Positions 54,690 to 62,662 of a stretch of DNA of 64,000 nt are shown here, piece after piece (positions within the stretch are counted from its first letter, which is position 1; each line of letters starts with the position of its first letter). The stretch is from Pirellulales bacterium (GTDB taxonomy: Bacteria > Planctomycetota > Planctomycetia > Pirellulales > UBA1268): contig JAGYJY010000006.1 in the NCBI GenBank assembly GCA_018401745.1, positions 1 to 64,000 on the forward strand, written 5' to 3'. Below the pieces are notes generated by a model. That model made no database searches. It saw only the letters and a list, made by a program, of their open reading frames with translations, and was not told the origin of the DNA. The position numbers and the translations under genes are program-made.

Positions 54690-56420
54690 TTACCGGGCTG
54701 CGGCCGGGGCTCCAGAGCCGCTTGGCAGGCGACTGGAGGCAGAGCCGCCGGTCGGGGTGTCGAGCAGAATAATCTCGGCATCGCGACGCGGCCTGGGCTC
54801 ACGATCCTGGCCGGTGTCAGGCAGCCTCACCGGGATGTGGTACGTCTGAACGTCTGGTTCGGCCGGCTGCTCGTCGACAGCGCTCCCCCCCACAGAGCGG
54901 TAGCTGAAGAACCCAGCGGCACCAACGAGCAACAGCAGCACCCCCACCATCGCGGCCATCACACCCACGACCAGCGACCCGCGGAAGCCGCGGCCCAGCT
55001 GCCGGCTGCGACGCTCCTCTGGCGAGATCTGCTGATAGGCATCGAGGGTTTTCCGCACAAACGCGGCATCGACATCAAGCTCGCGGGCGATTTCGAGAAC
55101 AGATCGCTCCCCCAGCAGGCTCTCTCCCTGAGACTCCATCCGCATCGCCGTGCGGAGGATCGAGTCGACATCGCTGCGAGGAACCCACCGCTCGGCCTCC
55201 CGCACGGGCATCACCGCAGCGGTCATGGCCAGCCCATCGAGCTCGTCGCCTGAGGGCCTCGCGAGTCCGATCGCGTCGAGCGCCGCCAGTGCTGCGGTTG
55301 CTGATGCAAATCGATTGGCGGGATCGCGGGCGAGCAGCTGCATCAGCCAGGCCTCAAGGGCCGGCGGAACATCGTCGCGAAGGTTTGCCAGTGGTGGCGG
55401 GTCCTCCACGGCGATCTGCCGCAGCAGCTTCAGCGGGCTGGCCTCACCAAAGGGCGTGCGGCCGGCAAGCATCTGATAGAGCGTAACCCCGAGACTATAG
55501 AGATCGCTCGCGGCAGTGGCCTCCTCGCCGGCAGCAGCCTCCGGAGCGAGATACGAGACCGTTCCCAGCAGCGTGCCGGTGATCGTCAGGCTCTCCGCTC
55601 GCTCAAGGCTGCGGGCGAGTCCGAAATCGGTCAGTTTGTAGGTGCCATCAGCAGCCCGCAGGATGTTGGCCGGCTTCACATCGCGGTGCACGATGCCGGC
55701 GGCATGGGCGGCAGCCAGGCCAGCGAGCACCTGTCGACCACAGTCGGCGGCCGCCTCCGCTGAGAGCCGGGGCTTCTCTTTGAGGATCTGCTGCAGGCTC
55801 TGCCCGTTGACATATTCCATCGCCAGATACGGTGGCGTTGCCTGGGGCTCAAACTCGTAGATCTGCACCACATGCGGAGAGGTGAGCCGGGCGATGCTGC
55901 GGGCCTCCTCGGCAAACCGCTCCATCACGCTCGCTGCAGAGCCTTCGCCCGCCGCAAAACGTGGATGCAGCACCTTCACCGCCGCATCCCGCTGCAACGC
56001 ATCGTCGTGGCCGCGGAAAACCGTGCCCATGCCGCCGCGACCAAGCACACCGCTGATCCGGTAGCGGCCGATGTGGTCGAGCTCGGCCGGCGTGCGATGA
56101 GCATCGCGGGCAGCTGGCGGCCGAGGCAGCGTGACACCCGGAGCGAGCGGCACAGCGTTGATCCAGTTGTCGAGGAAGAGCCCCAAGAGCAGGTAGATCA
56201 CCACGCCGGGAACCACGCCCGTGAGCATGGTGAGGAGAATCGCCAGCAGCCGCACGGCCACCACCGGTACGCCCCGCCGTGTGGCCAGGCCGGAGCAGAC
56301 CCCCAGGATCCACGGGCCACCCGCGGCCCACGAGAGAAAACTGCTCCCCAGCACGACCGCCGCCGCCACGATCAGCGTGGCGATGATGAACACCATTTCC
56401 AGCAAGCCAAGGGCGATCAC
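54690..56420 (-). CDS. PspC-domain Ser/Thr protein kinase in the psp operon
   Basis: The GTG at 56420, with GGAG about 8 bases upstream, gives 576 aa. Residues 7-30 are a membrane segment (MVFIIATLIVAAAVVLGSSF); residues 32-82 form a PspC domain (PWILGVCSGLATRRGVPVVA ... GVVPGVVIYLLLGLFLDNW). A Hanks kinase follows at about 116-380: LGRGGMGTVFRG, AAVKVL lysine 149, IVHRDVKPANIL, DFGLARSL, SDLYSLGVTLYQMLAG. A helical VLEIARELDVDAAFVRKTLD region, a second membrane segment (LVVGVMAAMVGVLLLLVGAA) and a polar tail complete it. It is the last gene after pspA and pspC, so it probably reports envelope stress by phosphorylation. The PspC-kinase union is unusual to me. Confidence 0.88.
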   Translation of the reverse strand: MIALGLLEMVFIIATLIVAAAVVLGSSFLSWAAGGPWILGVCSGLATRRGVPVVAVRLLAILLTMLTGVVPGVVIYLLLGLFLDNWINAVPLAPGVTLPRPPAARDAHRTPAELDHIGRYRISGVLGRGGMGTVFRGHDDALQRDAAVKVLHPRFAAGEGSAASVMERFAEEARSIARLTSPHVVQIYEFEPQATPPYLAMEYVNGQSLQQILKEKPRLSAEAAADCGRQVLAGLAAAHAAGIVHRDVKPANILRAADGTYKLTDFGLARSLERAESLTITGTLLGTVSYLAPEAAAGEEATAASDLYSLGVTLYQMLAGRTPFGEASPLKLLRQIAVEDPPPLANLRDDVPPALEAWLMQLLARDPANRFASATAALAALDAIGLARPSGDELDGLAMTAAVMPVREAERWVPRSDVDSILRTAMRMESQGESLLGERSVLEIARELDVDAAFVRKTLDAYQQISPEERRSRQLGRGFRGSLVVGVMAAMVGVLLLLVGAAGFFSYRSVGGSAVDEQPAEPDVQTYHIPVRLPDTGQDREPRPRRDAEIILLDTPTGGSASSRLPSGSGAPAAAR

Positions 56421-56478
56421 GGCAGTCTCTCCAGACCTCTCTTCTCTCCAGTCTCGACAGCAGCGGACAGCCGGAGCG

Positions 56479-56811
56479 TCAGACCCCGCGGCGACGGGAG
56501 CGAGCCTCCGCAGACTCGACCCGCTGCTCAAGCTCGGCCAGCCGCGACCAGAGGCTCCGGCCTGTTCGCAGAGGCCATTCTCGCACGTCGCGGCCCCGAA
56601 TGGGACTCGCTGTTCGCCCCAGGGCAATCGCCGCCGCGAGGTAGATCGCGATCGTGGCCCACCAGGCCGTCCACCAGGCGATCAGGACCACTGCCAGTCG
56701 CACCCAGAATGCCGCGATGCCGAGCCGGTCAGCGACCCAGCGGCAGACCCCAAAGATCAGCCCGGGGCGTCGCAGGCGGGTGCGTTCCTCTGGCCAGTCA
56801 CGATTGTCCAT
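56479..56811 (-). CDS. PspC domain protein
   Basis: The ATG at 56811 has GAGGAAG upstream. The 110-aa product has a PspC core (PGLIFGVCRWVADRLGIAAF ... WVRLAVVLIAWW) with a membrane segment (AWWATIAIYLAAAIALG) and a C-terminal basic coiled stretch (RLAELEQRVESAEARSR). PspC proteins are inner-membrane stress sensors that interact with PspA/PspB. A longer reading from 56865 adds 18 unconvincing residues. It lies between pspA (68 bases upstream) and the PspC-kinase gene. Confidence 0.85.
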   Translation of the reverse strand: MDNRDWPEERTRLRRPGLIFGVCRWVADRLGIAAFWVRLAVVLIAWWTAWWATIAIYLAAAIALGRTASPIRGRDVREWPLRTGRSLWSRLAELEQRVESAEARSRRRGV

Positions 56812-56879
56812 GAAGGTTCTTCCTCTCAAAGAGTGCGGCGTCACCACAGGCCGCACAGCCCACATCGACAGCAGCCCGA

Positions 56880-57542
56880 TCAGCCACCCTGCCGCTGCTG
56901 CTTGAGAGCCGCCAGCTCCCGATCGAGCTCGTCGTCGCCCTTGAGCGCCTCAAACTGTTCGACCAGCGGGGCGTTGCTCGAAGGATCGACCAGGTCTGCC
57001 TCGGCCTCCATCCGCTCGATCCGATTCTCGAGCCGATCAAAGCGGGCCAGAGCCTCCAGGCTGTCGGCCTTGCGGAGCGTGGTCTGCGCCTGCTTGTGGT
57101 TGCGTGCCCGGGCATGCCGCTGAGCGAGCAGCCGGTGCTTGTCGCGGGCTGTCTGAATCTTGGCTTCGACTGCAGCGATGTCCTGTTTGTACTGCGCGAC
57201 GAGGTCGTTGCAGGCCGCCACCTCCTCGGCAAACACCGCCGCCTTCTCTTCGTACTTTTTCTTCTCGCGGAGCGCCTCGCGGGCGAGATCCTCGCGGCCC
57301 CGGTCGACCGCCAGGCCAGCCCGGTCCTGCCACTCGGCAACAGCTGCCTGGGCCGACGCCGACGCCCGCTCGGCCTTCTTGCGTGCGGCGATCGCTCCGG
57401 CGCAGCTGGCTTTGACCTCGATCAGCGTGTCTTCCATCTCCTGCACCATCAGGCGGATCAGCTTCTCGGGATCCTCCGCCGCGTCGAGCATCGCGTTGAT
57501 ATTGGAACTGATGATGTCTCTCAGCCGTGTGAAGACGCCCAT
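56880..57542 (-). CDS. pspA: PspA/IM30 family phage-shock protein
   Basis: The 220-aa protein matches PspA in length and character: an amphipathic N-terminus (MGVFTRLRDIISSNINAML), then AEDPEKLIRLMVQEMEDTL and continuous charged coiled coil to DDELDRELAALKQQRQ. PspA binds the inner membrane under envelope stress, stabilises it, and in enterobacteria also inhibits PspF. First gene of a leftward operon with pspC and the PspC-kinase, transcribed from the sigma-54 promoter described upstream and divergent from the pspF-like gene. Confidence 0.92.
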   Translation of the reverse strand: MGVFTRLRDIISSNINAMLDAAEDPEKLIRLMVQEMEDTLIEVKASCAGAIAARKKAERASASAQAAVAEWQDRAGLAVDRGREDLAREALREKKKYEEKAAVFAEEVAACNDLVAQYKQDIAAVEAKIQTARDKHRLLAQRHARARNHKQAQTTLRKADSLEALARFDRLENRIERMEAEADLVDPSSNAPLVEQFEALKGDDELDRELAALKQQRQGG

Positions 57543-57621
57543 GGCGAGCCTCCGGTCGTACGTTCAAGCGATTTTGAAAGGGGGCCAACCCACCTGATCA
57601 GCCCGACGGAAGAGATGAGAG

Positions 57622-57637
57622 GCATATTCGGTGCCAA
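57622..57637 (-). promoter_or_regulatory. Sigma-54 promoter of the psp operon
   Basis: On the minus strand the sequence TTGGCACCGAATATGC has the diagnostic GG-N10-GC spacing with a near-consensus -24 box (TTGGCAC) and -12 GC. Transcription would start near 57610, leaving about 68 bases of leader to the pspA ATG. The divergent gene encodes a PspF-like activator, which supports the call. Confidence 0.75.
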
Positions 57638-57769
57638 ACCGGCCATCGTTTCACAACCTGTTGAGAAATAACGACTTAAGGGCCGTGATGCCGAAACATG
57701 CCGAACGCACAAAAGGCGGCATCCCCCACAAAATGGATTTTCTGGCCGTTTCGTGGTAAATGAAACCAC

Positions 57770-58825
57770 ATGCGTGAAGCCCTTGGCCAGTCCGACGCCT
57801 TTCTCTCGTTTGTCGAGCAGCTCTCTCGGGTCGCCGGCGTCGACCGGCCTGTGCTCGTTGTCGGCGAACGAGGCACGGGCAAGGAACTGGCAGCGGCCAA
57901 GATCCACTACCTCTCCCGCCGCTGGGAGTCGCCCTTGGTCGCGCTCAACTGCGCTGCCCTGGCACCCGCCTTGATGGAGGCGGAACTCTTTGGTCACGAA
58001 CGGGGAGCCTTCACGGGTGCGGCCACCAGCCGGGCCGGACGCTTTGAGGCAGCCGACGGCGGGACGCTCTTGCTCGATGAGATTGGGCTGATCCCCATCG
58101 AGGTTCAGGAAAAGATTCTCCGCACGGTGGAGTACGGCAGCTTTGAGCGAGTCGGCAGCTCCAAGCCTCAACAGGTCGATGTGCGAATCGTGGGAGCCAC
58201 CAACGCCGACCTGCCTGCCTTGGTTCACGACGGCCGCTTCAAGGCCGACCTGCTCGACCGGCTCGCATTTGAAGTGATCCGAGTGCCTCCGCTGCGGGAG
58301 CGTGGTGACGACATCCTCCTGCTCGCCCACCATTTCGCCAGCCGGATGGCCCTGGAACTCGGCCGTGAGCAGACGCCCACGTTTTCAGCCAAGGCGAAGC
58401 AGGCCCTGCACGCCCACGACTGGCCGGGAAACGTTCGTGAACTGAAAAACGTGATCGAGCGGGCCGTGTACCGCAGCGACACCACCACCATCAGTGAACT
58501 CATCTTCGACCCGTTCGCGGCCGAGCCGTCCCGATCGCAACACACCCTCGCGAGCCGCAGCACGAAGGATGCCGACGCCCCATCCATCGGCATCCTCGGT
58601 GGCACCGCAGCCTCGTCGACCGAGCCGCTGCCCCACTCGAACGCAGCCACCCAAACACCTCTTCTCGACGCCATTGCCTCCCTGGAGGTCGCCATGCTCA
58701 AGCAGGCGCTCGCAGAGACCCACTACCACCAACGGAAGGCAGCAGAACAACTGGGAATCACCTACCATCAGTTTCGTGGGCTCTACCGCAAACACGCTGG
58801 AGCCCTCAAGCCTCCACCTGCCTGA
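57770..58825 (+). CDS. pspF: PspF-like sigma-54-dependent transcriptional activator
   Basis: The 351-aa protein is an AAA+ enhancer-binding protein without an N-terminal receiver, as in PspF. Walker A is VVGERGTGKEL, the sigma-54-contacting loop GAFTGA is intact in GHERGAFTGAATS, Walker B is TLLLDEIG, and the arginine finger region lies in PLRERGDDILLLAHHF. A Ser/Thr-rich linker leads to a Fis-type helix-turn-helix (HYHQRKAAEQLGITYHQFRG). It should activate the facing psp promoter and might serve the second sigma-54 promoter near 60551. E. coli PspF is of similar length. Confidence 0.9.
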   Translation: MREALGQSDAFLSFVEQLSRVAGVDRPVLVVGERGTGKELAAAKIHYLSRRWESPLVALNCAALAPALMEAELFGHERGAFTGAATSRAGRFEAADGGTLLLDEIGLIPIEVQEKILRTVEYGSFERVGSSKPQQVDVRIVGATNADLPALVHDGRFKADLLDRLAFEVIRVPPLRERGDDILLLAHHFASRMALELGREQTPTFSAKAKQALHAHDWPGNVRELKNVIERAVYRSDTTTISELIFDPFAAEPSRSQHTLASRSTKDADAPSIGILGGTAASSTEPLPHSNAATQTPLLDAIASLEVAMLKQALAETHYHQRKAAEQLGITYHQFRGLYRKHAGALKPPPA

Positions 58826-59863: not shown

Positions 59864-59925
59864 CACCGTGTTCGTCTCGCCCTGGCCGCGAGGAGCGGGG
59901 CGAGGAGACGGCGGGCGGATGGTGA

Positions 59926-60190
59926 GGAGACCGCGCGCGGTGGTCCGGCTCGGCAGGCGGCAAAAGTCGCGTCGCTGGGCCAGGATAGGCCAAACGCTCC
60001 GCGAGCGTTCGCCGACCCGCCGAGCCTCCCCAGTTCGTCAATAAAGGGAGGGGACGGAGAGGAGACCGCGCGCGGTGGTCCGGCTCGGCAGGCGGCAAAA
60101 GTCGCGTCGCTGGGCCAGGATAGGCCAAACGCTCCGCGAGCGTTCGCCGACCCGCCGAGCCTCCCCAGTTCGTCAATGAAGGGAGGGGGA
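59926..60190. repeat. Dispersed intergenic repeat, family A, two tandem copies
   Basis: Two nearly identical copies start at 59926 and 60061 (135-base period). Each has outer arms GGCTCGGCAGGCGG / CCGACCCGCCGAGCC and an inner AACGCTC-CGC-GAGCGTT hairpin. They match the single copy at 11385-11516 but differ in one loop base set (CGC here, CTC there). Confidence 0.85.
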
Positions 60191-60202
60191 CGGAGAGGGA
60201 AC

Positions 60203-60273
60203 GGGACGGGTCCGCGGGCCGCGAAGCGGCCTCGGCGAAGCCGAGGTGCCTGCGGCACCCGTGGACCCGTCCC
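60203..60273. repeat. Dispersed intergenic repeat, family B copy 3
   Basis: A 71-base nested palindrome equal in length to those at 11603 and 52781. Outer arms GGGACGGGTC/GACCCGTCCC and inner stem GGCCTCGGC-GAA-GCCGAGG are kept while the triloop and several paired bases differ (CCGCGGG with CCCGTGG in place of CCTCGGG with CCCGAAG), that is, compensatory change. Confidence 0.85.
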
Positions 60274-60347
60274 GCTTGCGCGGCGGATGGCCCGCAGCGA
60301 GCGTCCGGAGGGGCAGCCCCGGGCTCACCCCGAGCGACCCCACCAGG

Positions 60348-60451
60348 TGGAGCGATTCGCACCAGTCAGGTGGAGCGATTCGCTCCAGCACACCCCGCCG
60401 GAGCGTCATGGTGGAGCGATTCGCACCAGCCAGGTGGAGCGATTCGCTCCA
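60348..60451. promoter_or_regulatory. Four tandem 17-bp dyads, possible enhancer/operator array
   Basis: Copies at 60348, 60371, 60412 and 60435 follow TGGAGCGATTCGCTCCA; the second and fourth are perfect palindromes, the first and third carry one mismatch (GCACCA). Spacing is 23, 41, 23: a duplicated pair with a 64-base period. They lie about 100-205 bases upstream of the sigma-54-like -24 box at 60551, the usual distance for enhancer-binding-protein sites. They could instead be part of the neighbouring palindromic repeats. Confidence 0.55.
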
Positions 60452-60520
60452 CCTCCTCCGCAGCGTCCCCTTCGCCCTGCTGAGAAAAAAGGCCGCTGAA
60501 ACTCCGAGAAAAACGCGTTT

Positions 60521-60537
60521 TCTGAGGATTCCTCAGA
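60521..60537. promoter_or_regulatory. Perfect 17-bp palindrome next to the sigma-54-like promoter
   Basis: TCTGAGGA-T-TCCTCAGA sits 14 bases ahead of the -24 region. It may be a binding site for a repressor or for a bending protein; nothing further can be said from sequence. Confidence 0.4.
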
Positions 60538-60550
60538 GGCTGCCACGGCT

Positions 60551-60568
60551 TTGGCACGCGAAGTGCAA
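60551..60568 (+). promoter_or_regulatory. Sigma-54-like promoter of the pseudo-receiver operon
   Basis: TTGGCACGCGAAGTGCAA has GG-N10-GC spacing, a consensus -24 box (TTGGCACG) and a -12 box GTGCA close to TTGCA. The start of transcription would be near 60578, giving a leader of about 215 bases before the first small gene at 60793. I see no coding sequence in that leader. Confidence 0.65.
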
Positions 60569-60792
60569 CTTATTTCTTGCAGCGACAGGCTCTGAAGAGC
60601 CCGATTCCGGCGACCGCTCAGGTCGCAAGGCGTCGGCTGTTTGAGGCCTTTTGCGAACGAGGTCTGCCGGGGCGTCTCGGCAGGGCTCGCGTTTCAACAC
60701 GTTGGGCACGAAACACGCTGCGTCCGAGAGCCGCCTGGCTTTTTGGAGATGCGTTTCCGTGCAAGGAGGTCCGTCGTCAAAGGAGTTCGCTC

Positions 60793-60918
60793 ATGAACTT
60801 TCGAGGAAAAGCGGGATCAGCCTCTGCCCTGGCTGATTCCTGGCACCTCACCCATGCAGACATCCTCTGCTGTGCGGTGCCGATCGTGGTGTTCCTCTCG
60901 ATCATTTCTGTGGTCTAG
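60793..60918 (+). CDS. 41-aa single-span membrane peptide
   Basis: A strong AGGAG ribosome-binding site lies 7 bases before the ATG. The peptide starts MNFRGKAGSASALADSW and ends in a hydrophobic segment (ILCCAVPIVVFLSIISVV) that runs to the C-terminus, so it should be a tail-anchored or small single-pass membrane protein with a vicinal CysCys. I do not recognise a family. It is the first gene after the sigma-54-like promoter; the next three genes follow on the same strand at 77-94-base gaps. Confidence 0.6.
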   Translation: MNFRGKAGSASALADSWHLTHADILCCAVPIVVFLSIISVV

Positions 60919-61005
60919 CTGGATACACCGTCCTGTTTGAAAAGCTTGTTGTCAGCAACCGTCCGTTCCGTCATTCCACTGCCGATTTTTAAGAGGGTCT
61001 TCATC

Positions 61006-61386
61006 GTGAAAAACGCCACCGCACTGCGAGTCTTCGTCGCCGGCGTCGCTGTTTCGTTTGCCTGTGCGACTGCCACTGCCAACGAAATGTCGCATCGCGT
61101 TGCCCTCGGGATCACTCCCACGCCTGTCTCGATTCCGCTGCCGTCCGGTGAGCTTTCGCTCGGCCTCGACGACATCACGTCGGTTGAGGTGCTGGGCCTG
61201 ACGCGGGCTGAGGCGGATCAGGTGGTTGCGGCCCGCGGCATGTCTGGCCTTTCGGCCGCTGTGCTGCCGGCAGTGGTGGGTGACCTCTTCGGCATGCCGC
61301 CGGTGTCGTCCAACTGGGACAGCGTGCGGGCGGCTGTTGCCGCTGGCGGCTTCGCCACCCGGCCCACCGTCGGTGTGGATGAGTGA
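61006..61386 (+). CDS. Small exported protein, function unknown
   Basis: The GTG at 61006 (AGAGGG about 9 bases upstream) gives 126 aa with a signal peptide (ALRVFVAGVAVSFACATATA, cleavage near ATANE). The mature part has a Pro-rich patch (TPTPVSIPLPSGELSLGLDD), a helical stretch (LGLTRAEADQVVAARG) and a Gly/Ala-rich end. No cysteines remain after cleavage and no known domain is apparent. It is probably periplasmic and belongs with the two pseudo-receiver genes downstream. Confidence 0.6.
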   Translation: MKNATALRVFVAGVAVSFACATATANEMSHRVALGITPTPVSIPLPSGELSLGLDDITSVEVLGLTRAEADQVVAARGMSGLSAAVLPAVVGDLFGMPPVSSNWDSVRAAVAAGGFATRPTVGVDE

Positions 61387-61480
61387 GTCACAGAACTTTC
61401 GTTTGAATCTTCAATACAGAGCCCCCACTGATTCCCCTGACATCCTGAAACTCGGAATCAGCACGCGGAGAACACTGATC

Positions 61481-62002
61481 GTGAACCTGCCAAACGCCTA
61501 CGACCGACGAGACATGGCCAAGGATTCGGCCGCTTCCTCGCAGCAAGCCCCTGTGCGAGAGATCGTGATCGTCGATCCGCACTGCGATCGCTATGCCGAC
61601 TTTGTGACGGCGGCCATGGACGGTGAGATCGGTCTTCACTTCTGCAACGACGCCCAGTCGGCCATCAAGCTCGCTCGACGCTTCCGAGCGGATGTCTGGC
61701 TCGTCAGCGAAGAACTGCCCGACATGGAAGGCTTCGACCTGCTGCCGCTGCTGGCCAATCAGGTCAGCCAGAGCGAGGTCGATCCTCTGCTGCGTGGCCG
61801 TCGCCAGTCGCTCGGCCGCGTTGGCCAGGGTCGCCACTCCGGCATCTTCATCGTTGCCGACGACTACAGCATCGAAGGCGAGCAGCGGTCTTTGGCAGCG
61901 GGCATTGCCGGCTACCTCGTGCGGCCTCTCTCCGCCGAACTCGTGCAGGCCCTGCGGCCCGCCGAATCAGCCCCAGCCTTCCTCGATGTTGTCGAGGCCT
62001 GA
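61481..62002 (+). CDS. Pseudo-receiver domain protein 1
   Basis: The GTG at 61481 has GGAG about 10 bases upstream; ATG at 61514 is an alternative. The 173-aa protein has CheY-like topology (REIVIVDPHCDRYADFV, ADVWLVSEELPDMEGFDLLP, SGIFIVADDY, AAGIAGYLVRPLSAELVQAL) but lacks the phosphorylation site: the expected Asp at the end of strand 3 is Ser (LVSEELPD), one acidic-pocket Asp is Pro, and the strand-5 Lys is Arg. So it is a receiver fold used without phosphotransfer, probably for protein contacts. A loop insert (RGRRQSLGRVGQGRHS) separates strands 3 and 4. Paralogous to the next gene and of equal length. Confidence 0.75.
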   Translation: MNLPNAYDRRDMAKDSAASSQQAPVREIVIVDPHCDRYADFVTAAMDGEIGLHFCNDAQSAIKLARRFRADVWLVSEELPDMEGFDLLPLLANQVSQSEVDPLLRGRRQSLGRVGQGRHSGIFIVADDYSIEGEQRSLAAGIAGYLVRPLSAELVQALRPAESAPAFLDVVEA

Positions 62003-62079
62003 GCCACTCGCGGCTCTCTCACGCATTCCATCCGATTCAACAGATCCTTTTGCATTCACGTTTTTCCAGGAGTTCTCCA

Positions 62080-62601
62080 ATGGTCATGAAGCTCGCCAAA
62101 GCGATCCAGGCTCCCAGCGTCGTCGTCATCGACCCTCGCTTTGAGGCCTATCAGGAACTCGTGGAGAGCGCCCGCTCCGGCCGCATCGGCCTGCACCTGC
62201 GAAGCTCCGGTGCTGAGGGCCTGGCCCTGGCGAAGAAGCATGCGGTTGACGCCTGGCTTGTGGCAGCCGACCTCGACGACATGTCAGGCCTCGACTTTGT
62301 CGAACTGCTCCGCAACCAGCTGGAAGCCTCGCAGACGACCGACAGCGAAGGCGGCCAGCAGCGGGTCGCGATCGTCAGCGAAGTGCCCGGCAAGCCTGGC
62401 CACTGGGAAGCCACCGAGCATGGAGCCGACCACTCGATGGTCAAGCCGATCTCGATGGCCGACCTCGAGACCTTCCTCGAGATGACCCCGGCTGAGCGGG
62501 AGATGATTCTCCCCGGCCGTGACCTCGCCCGCTCGATCCTCACCCTCCCGGTGAGCATGGGTGCCGCCGTCGTCGCCCTCGCGGTGGTGATGCTCGGCTG
62601 A
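62080..62601 (+). CDS. Pseudo-receiver domain protein 2 with C-terminal membrane segment
   Basis: CCAGGAG precedes the ATG at 62080. The 173-aa protein parallels its neighbour: PSVVVIDPRFEAYQELV, VDAWLVAADLDDMSGLDFVE, RVAIVSEVPG, GADHSMVKPISMADLETFLE. The phospho-acceptor position is Ala (LVAADLDD), though the strand-5 Lys is kept (MVKPIS). The C-terminus is a membrane segment (LTLPVSMGAAVVALAVVMLG), so this one is tail-anchored to the inner membrane with the fold in the cytosol. Together they look like a membrane and a soluble partner of one signalling or assembly complex. A strong terminator follows 28 bases later. Confidence 0.75.
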   Translation: MVMKLAKAIQAPSVVVIDPRFEAYQELVESARSGRIGLHLRSSGAEGLALAKKHAVDAWLVAADLDDMSGLDFVELLRNQLEASQTTDSEGGQQRVAIVSEVPGKPGHWEATEHGADHSMVKPISMADLETFLEMTPAEREMILPGRDLARSILTLPVSMGAAVVALAVVMLG

Positions 62602-62629
62602 GCCGGAAGTGGCCTGTCAACGAACAAGA

Positions 62630-62662
62630 GAGCCAGTGGGCCAATCATCGGCCCACTGGCTC
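62630..62662. terminator. Strong bidirectional terminator hairpin
   Basis: GAGCCAGTGGGCC and GGCCCACTGGCTC form a perfect 13-bp stem with a 7-base loop, followed by GCTTCGTTT on the plus strand. It lies between the stops of two convergent genes, so it can end both transcripts. Confidence 0.85.

Follow-up and report, generated by a model that had tools for sequence, protein, structure and literature searches.

What switches on a small sigma-54-linked operon that encodes two receiver-like proteins devoid of the phospho-accepting aspartate, and what might such an operon serve? The question is raised by four genes near the end of the window, by which we mean the whole 64,000-nucleotide stretch of planctomycete DNA that was analysed. 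A reading made from the letters alone (below, the sequence-only reading) had assigned them to an envelope structure or a stress response under a sigma-54 activator.

Results

A duplicated four-gene operon behind a sigma-54 promoter

The operon promoter, TTGGCACGCGAAGTGCA, is of the -24/-12 type and occupies 60551-60567 on the plus strand (GG at 60553, GC at 60565, expected start near 60578). It matches 12/13 consensus positions, and the GG-N10-GC site of the sequence-only reading recurs, at a threshold of at least 11/13, upstream of the operon in 34/34 related loci. Four genes follow on the same strand: g1 (60793-60918), a 41-aa peptide with a C-terminal transmembrane segment; g2 (61006-61386), which begins with GTG and encodes a 126-aa exported protein with a signal-peptide-like hydrophobic N-terminus; g3 (61481-62002, GTG start), a soluble 173-aa Asp-less receiver with Ser at the phospho-Asp position; and g4 (62080-62601), a second 173-aa Asp-less receiver with Ala at this position and a C-terminal transmembrane tail. 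Hydrophobic segments lie at the C-terminal ends of g1 and g4 and at the N-terminus of g2, with none in g3, which agrees with the tail-anchored peptide, the exported protein, and the one membrane-anchored and one soluble pseudo-receiver of the sequence-only reading.

The "strong terminator" claimed after g4 held up only in part. A stable 13-bp hairpin is indeed present between convergent genes at 62630-62662 (-34.6 kcal/mol, z -6.9) and might serve as a bidirectional terminator, but the plus strand has no U-tract there and the match to the terminator consensus is not above chance. The hairpin is also missing from the second copy of the operon, where the sequence diverges 2 bp past the last stop, and it thus lies outside the operon unit. 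PADLOC models have no match among g1-g4, on which ground anti-phage defence was rejected, as was a structured RNA at the locus, for which there were no matches either.

The duplicated unit extends from 60056 to 62603 (plus strand), its right end falling 2 bp past the g4 stop, and its second copy is found behind aroB on another contig of the source genome (G000:C4, L001 8891-11438). The copies share 96.3% DNA identity and the same 17-bp sites upstream. They differ by 26 synonymous and 10 non-synonymous codon changes, with 7 and 6 synonymous and 2 and 1 non-synonymous changes in g4 and g3, respectively, so that these two proteins are nearly unchanged. Because the unit occurs twice at 96% identity, both copies look maintained, and the codon differences suggest purifying selection on both, provided that the MAG assembly is correct. 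A relative (G003) has two operon copies as well. No PEP-CTERM gene follows g4 in the window or in the second copy. The interval 59915-60345 is a tandem array of an intergenic repeat that is dispersed over the genome, where it has about 90 matches; since the duplication starts inside this array, repeat-mediated copying is suggested.

g3 and g4 are predicted pseudo-receivers

The two 173-aa proteins are paralogues with 32-38% local identity, both without the phospho-Asp, as had been claimed. Pfam Response_reg scores them at 21.3 and 27.1 bits (E 3e-4 and 5e-6), under the curated cut-off of 30.2 bits, and the case for a receiver fold therefore comes from structure prediction: each protein, modelled singly, gives a CheY-like fold with a pLDDT of about 90 in the core, and Foldseek matches both models to PDB receivers with probability 1.00. 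These predicted folds support the earlier suggestion that the pair may act as interaction modules. Across g3/g4 relatives the phospho-Asp position is A, S or N in 70/70 sequences, and the first acidic residue is retained in 68/70. The pocket Lys is present in 17/17 receivers from other families and mostly lost in g3 and g4, a loss consistent with the phosphorylation site having decayed further once duplication had produced the pair.

The operon is conserved in six genera

Relatives of g4 occur in 23/59 genomes and are strong in six genera of the same family. The GTDB collection yielded 34 g3 loci, all in planctomycete MAGs, with five weak g3 matches outside this set left aside; the order g1-(g2)-g3-g4 is retained among them, which bears out the expectation of a shared gene order. 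The 796 strand-kb of these loci contain 43 sigma-54 sites at the threshold of at least 11/13, 34 of which correspond to the one operon promoter expected per locus, a concentration beyond what chance would give. At L047, L051, L062 and L064, g4 is set apart from g1-g3, with a sigma-54 promoter at each of the two units. The operon runs into a PEP-CTERM gene at 11/34 loci, and the ten downstream proteins scanned include seven subtilases and one protein with an FGE-sulfatase domain.

The small proteins vary more in arrangement. The consensus of g1 among relatives is LLC..PI..FLSI.SLV-stop, and the divergent g2 family keeps the motif AVxP.(L/V)VxDL...RP..G..VG. At several related loci there is one more short peptide with a tail anchor, along with an exported g2-like protein whose C-terminus carries a conserved motif; in the g1-g3 interval of L246-L277, from several genera, such a second peptide (about 36 aa, ending in AVVVxG) precedes the g2-like gene. 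At L260 (8849-9151) a g1-like frame comes after g4 and not before g3, which suggests shuffled units.

Tandem dyads mark the operon and PEP-CTERM genes

The tandem 17-bp dyads reported upstream of the promoter are present as four putative activator sites, TGGAGCGATTCGC(T/A)CCA, starting at 60348, 60371, 60412 and 60435 (span 60348-60451). Two are perfect and two have one mismatch, they lie 100-205 bp upstream of the promoter, and the motif can also be given as TGGRGCGAWTCGCYCCA. Dyads are found at 28/34 related loci, 87-201 bp ahead of the promoter and with a pitch of 22-24, 31-33 or 43-45 bp, that is, whole helical turns. They are confined to exactly the six operon-bearing genera and occur in no other among the 59 genomes, in which the reversed pattern used as a control has 0 matches. 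We rejected the idea that they are themselves dispersed repeats: the roughly 90-copy repeats end before the dyads begin, and the dyads are limited to few promoters. One genome (G002) has dyads and a C23-type activator (see below) with no detectable g3/g4, indicating that the regulon can exist without this pair, or that the MAG is incomplete.

Within the source genome the dyad recurs only at the second operon copy, at four loci on contig C21, on contig C23 and at one further C21 site. At C23:88088-88170, four dyad sites with a 22-bp pitch precede a PEP-CTERM protein, with a weak sigma-54 match (10/13). The four C21 loci continue into sites of the type TTGGCGCGG(A/G)(A/T)TTTGC(A/G); no sigma-54 site goes with the C21 dyad at 198046. 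Of the four loci, three mark the start of secreted Gly-rich proteins in stretches that contain PEP-CTERM signals, and the fourth (188248) precedes what, judged by eye, resembles a toxin-antitoxin pair. The proteins at L095/L096 (G000:C21:190-222 kb) are near-identical giant Gly-rich secreted proteins with PEP-CTERM ends, behind one duplicated dyad/sigma-54 promoter region. The C21 promoters are paralogues of one another and so do not count as separate lines of evidence. Independent support for a regulon comes from the relatives, where many non-operon dyads stand ahead of a sigma-54 site and PEP-CTERM genes (e.g. L121, L125, L133, L137 and L138). Thus the envelope link proposed from the letters has acquired substance in the form of PEP-CTERM surface-protein genes that share the dyads or are co-transcribed with the operon.

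Exosortase was rejected as a co-occurring gene: 52/59 genomes carry one, and most relatives do so whether or not they have the operon, so that it does not discriminate. The window's genus mates G001, G002 and G003 have no exosortase match, and two of the three carry the operon; G003, at least, has PEP-CTERM proteins all the same, a situation that may reflect draft gaps or another sorting enzyme.

A receiver-less activator is co-distributed with the dyads

The promoter and the activator-type dyads upstream of it agree with the proposed control by a sigma-54 activator, which is probably encoded elsewhere in the genome and not next to the operon. Eight sigma-54 activators are present in the source genome; activators of Pirellula have reportedly been the subject of an older analysis. 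In a reciprocal-best-hit screen of seven relatives, four with dyads and three without, two of the eight fitted the dyad distribution, the C9-type and the C23-type. The C21 activator near the PEP-CTERM cluster was rejected because its orthologues occur in all tested genomes, with or without dyads.

The C23-type protein (own copy at G000:C23:23712-25051) consists of an AAA domain and a Fis HTH, with no receiver domain. Full-length orthologues are found in five dyad genera and a syntenic copy in the sixth (G012:C280), and there are none in the genera labelled g2, g3, g6, g7, g8 and g9 (genus labels, not the genes above). A tree of four shared activators, a gene tree serving as proxy for the species tree, did not recover the dyad-positive genomes as a single clade, so that the match between activator, dyads and operon would need several gains or losses. 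On this distribution we consider it likely that the C23-type activator is the protein that binds the dyads.

The own copy (L347 6007-7391) lacks one base in a T-run and is split in consequence; its orthologues are intact. The frameshift is either an artefact of assembly or a sign that the gene has decayed. Its locus has no dyads, and autoregulation through them was therefore rejected. At nearly all C23-type loci of the family (L338 and L340, for instance) the activator is divergent to a chemoreceptor cluster that encodes CheR, an MCP-type transducer and a Peripla_BP_5 protein. We rejected this cluster as the activator's signal source, because the transducer is found even in genera that lack the activator and being neighbours is little evidence by itself.

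In other families an Asp-less receiver adjoins the activator

Across five other families of the order, 15/25 C23-type relatives have a g3/g4 homologue 220-600 bp further on, on the same strand, in which Asn or Ser replaces the phospho-Asp. A sigma-54 site (here at least 10/13, a looser threshold than the 11/13 used for the operon loci) lies between activator and receiver in 14/15 of these pairs, and PEP-CTERM genes lie downstream in 13/15. Finished genomes of this set have one PEP-CTERM gene per 40-90 kb, a density that predicts about 0.1 such gene over a search range of a few kb. A 1.5-kb flank search around some 70 activators of other types found no stand-alone g3/g4 homologue. The 17-bp dyad sequence was not found at the other-family loci.

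Discussion

The sequence comparisons make it probable that planctomycetes have a sigma-54 regulon for PEP-CTERM (exosortase-sorted) surface proteins, with the operon as one of its targets and probably as a feedback arm. In this reading the C23-type activator would bind the dyads and loop to RNA polymerase-sigma-54. Because this activator lacks a built-in regulatory domain, soluble g3 and membrane-tethered g4 could serve in trans as its regulatory domain and, with g1 and g2, would convey the condition of the inner membrane or of the export of surface proteins. The working principle would be like that of PspA/PspB/PspC on PspF, with different proteins. That g3 and g4 act on the C23-type activator in trans is a tentative proposal, a little short of an even case, and we have less confidence that g1, g2 and g4 connect its control to membrane and export. 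A bolder picture, about as likely as the action in trans, is that of a split NtrC-type switch: an order-wide receiver-less activator would be held under separate receivers that are never phosphorylated, and in one family a soluble and membrane-tethered pair would report on PEP-CTERM export.

Within the same regulon, g3 and g4 might instead form an output scaffold or adaptor at the inner membrane for the sorting, anchoring or processing of PEP-CTERM proteins, for example by steering exosortase or a subtilase, and not act on the activator at all. The tail anchors of g4 and g1, the export of g2 and of the downstream PEP-CTERM protein, the PEP-CTERM subtilase gene that follows g3/g4 in several genera, and the sigma-54 promoter of g3/g4 themselves are all consistent with such a role. 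Nevertheless, we think it unlikely: the Asp-less receiver of the other families adjoins an activator and not exosortase or export genes, only the C23-type is so paired, and exosortase is present in most relatives regardless of the operon and undetected in three genus mates of which two carry the operon.

As for the activator, the C9-type protein (G000:C9:127198-128391) has to be weighed as the one that binds the dyads, with the C23-type a bystander. It is found in all six dyad genera, but its range extends to genus g7 and a large number of further families that lack dyads, and none of the C9-type loci of the control set has an Asp-less receiver beside it, so that we regard this assignment as improbable. 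The window also contains, at 54690-58825, a complete phage-shock locus: pspF on the plus strand, above its equivalog cut-off and hence a true pspF, and pspA, a PspC-domain gene and a PspC-fused Ser/Thr kinase on the minus strand, with a sigma-54-like site at 57636-57621 (minus) in the pspA-pspF interval. Despite this proximity, we give hardly any credence to a phage-shock role with activation by the PspF encoded 2-3 kb upstream, and the stress response of the sequence-only reading is likewise not supported, because PspF orthologues are absent from G030, G035 and G013, all of which have operon and dyads, the pspA promoter has no dyad, and the second copy and nearly all relatives lie away from psp genes.

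PEP-CTERM/exosortase proteins are widespread in planctomycetes, and their control outside Proteobacteria had been an open question. Haft et al. (2006) found the PEP-CTERM regulatory motif and PrsK/PrsR/PrsT only in Proteobacteria, with no such motif in planctomycetes, and noted that other PEP-CTERM regulators were still to be found (PMC1569441). Dependence of a PEP-CTERM gene on RpoN has been described (PMC9850573), and a 2025 survey of sigma-54 regulons mentions neither PEP-CTERM nor exosortase (PMC12316311). For the planctomycete genes a motif, a promoter, a candidate activator and partner proteins can now be named. Phosphorylation-dead receivers as conserved partners of a receiver-less sigma-54 activator may represent a new mode of control for such activators; among the papers covered, which did not include subscription journals, none brings pseudo-receivers and sigma-54 together.

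Our best reading is that the regulon is a previously undescribed control system, distinct from proteobacterial PrsK/PrsR. The two are alike in placing an activator motif, repeated in some cases, and a -24/-12 promoter before PEP-CTERM genes under an NtrC-type activator (PMC1569441). They differ in the site, here a 17-bp dyad, and in that separate Asp-less receivers replace the PrsK/PrsR pair. Against the PrsR model TIGR02915, which describes a receiver, AAA and Fis HTH protein, the C23-type activator scores 262.8 bits (cut-off 502.6); six other activators of the source genome score 273-365 bits, and PspF is also below the cut-off. No PrsK gene lies beside the C23-type activator, whose neighbours are the Peripla_BP_5 protein, the MCP-type transducer, CheR and an LpxA-like protein.

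By analogy, the closest parallel in working principle may be PspF with PspA/PspB/PspC (PMC3128695, PMC6003685), also a receiver-less sigma-54 activator with a target operon of soluble and small membrane proteins, and one for which inhibition in trans by PspA is established (PMC3128695). Unlike that system, g1-g4 have no match to PspA, PspB, PspC or PspD, the partners are CheY-like and not coiled-coil, and surface proteins take the place of membrane stress. As domains, g3 and g4 resemble the known class of aspartate-less receivers (ALR; PMC4395418) in their CheY fold, the replaced phospho-Asp and the retained first acidic residue, and they differ from it in being stand-alone and paired, with one partner tethered to the membrane and both tied genetically to a sigma-54 activator.
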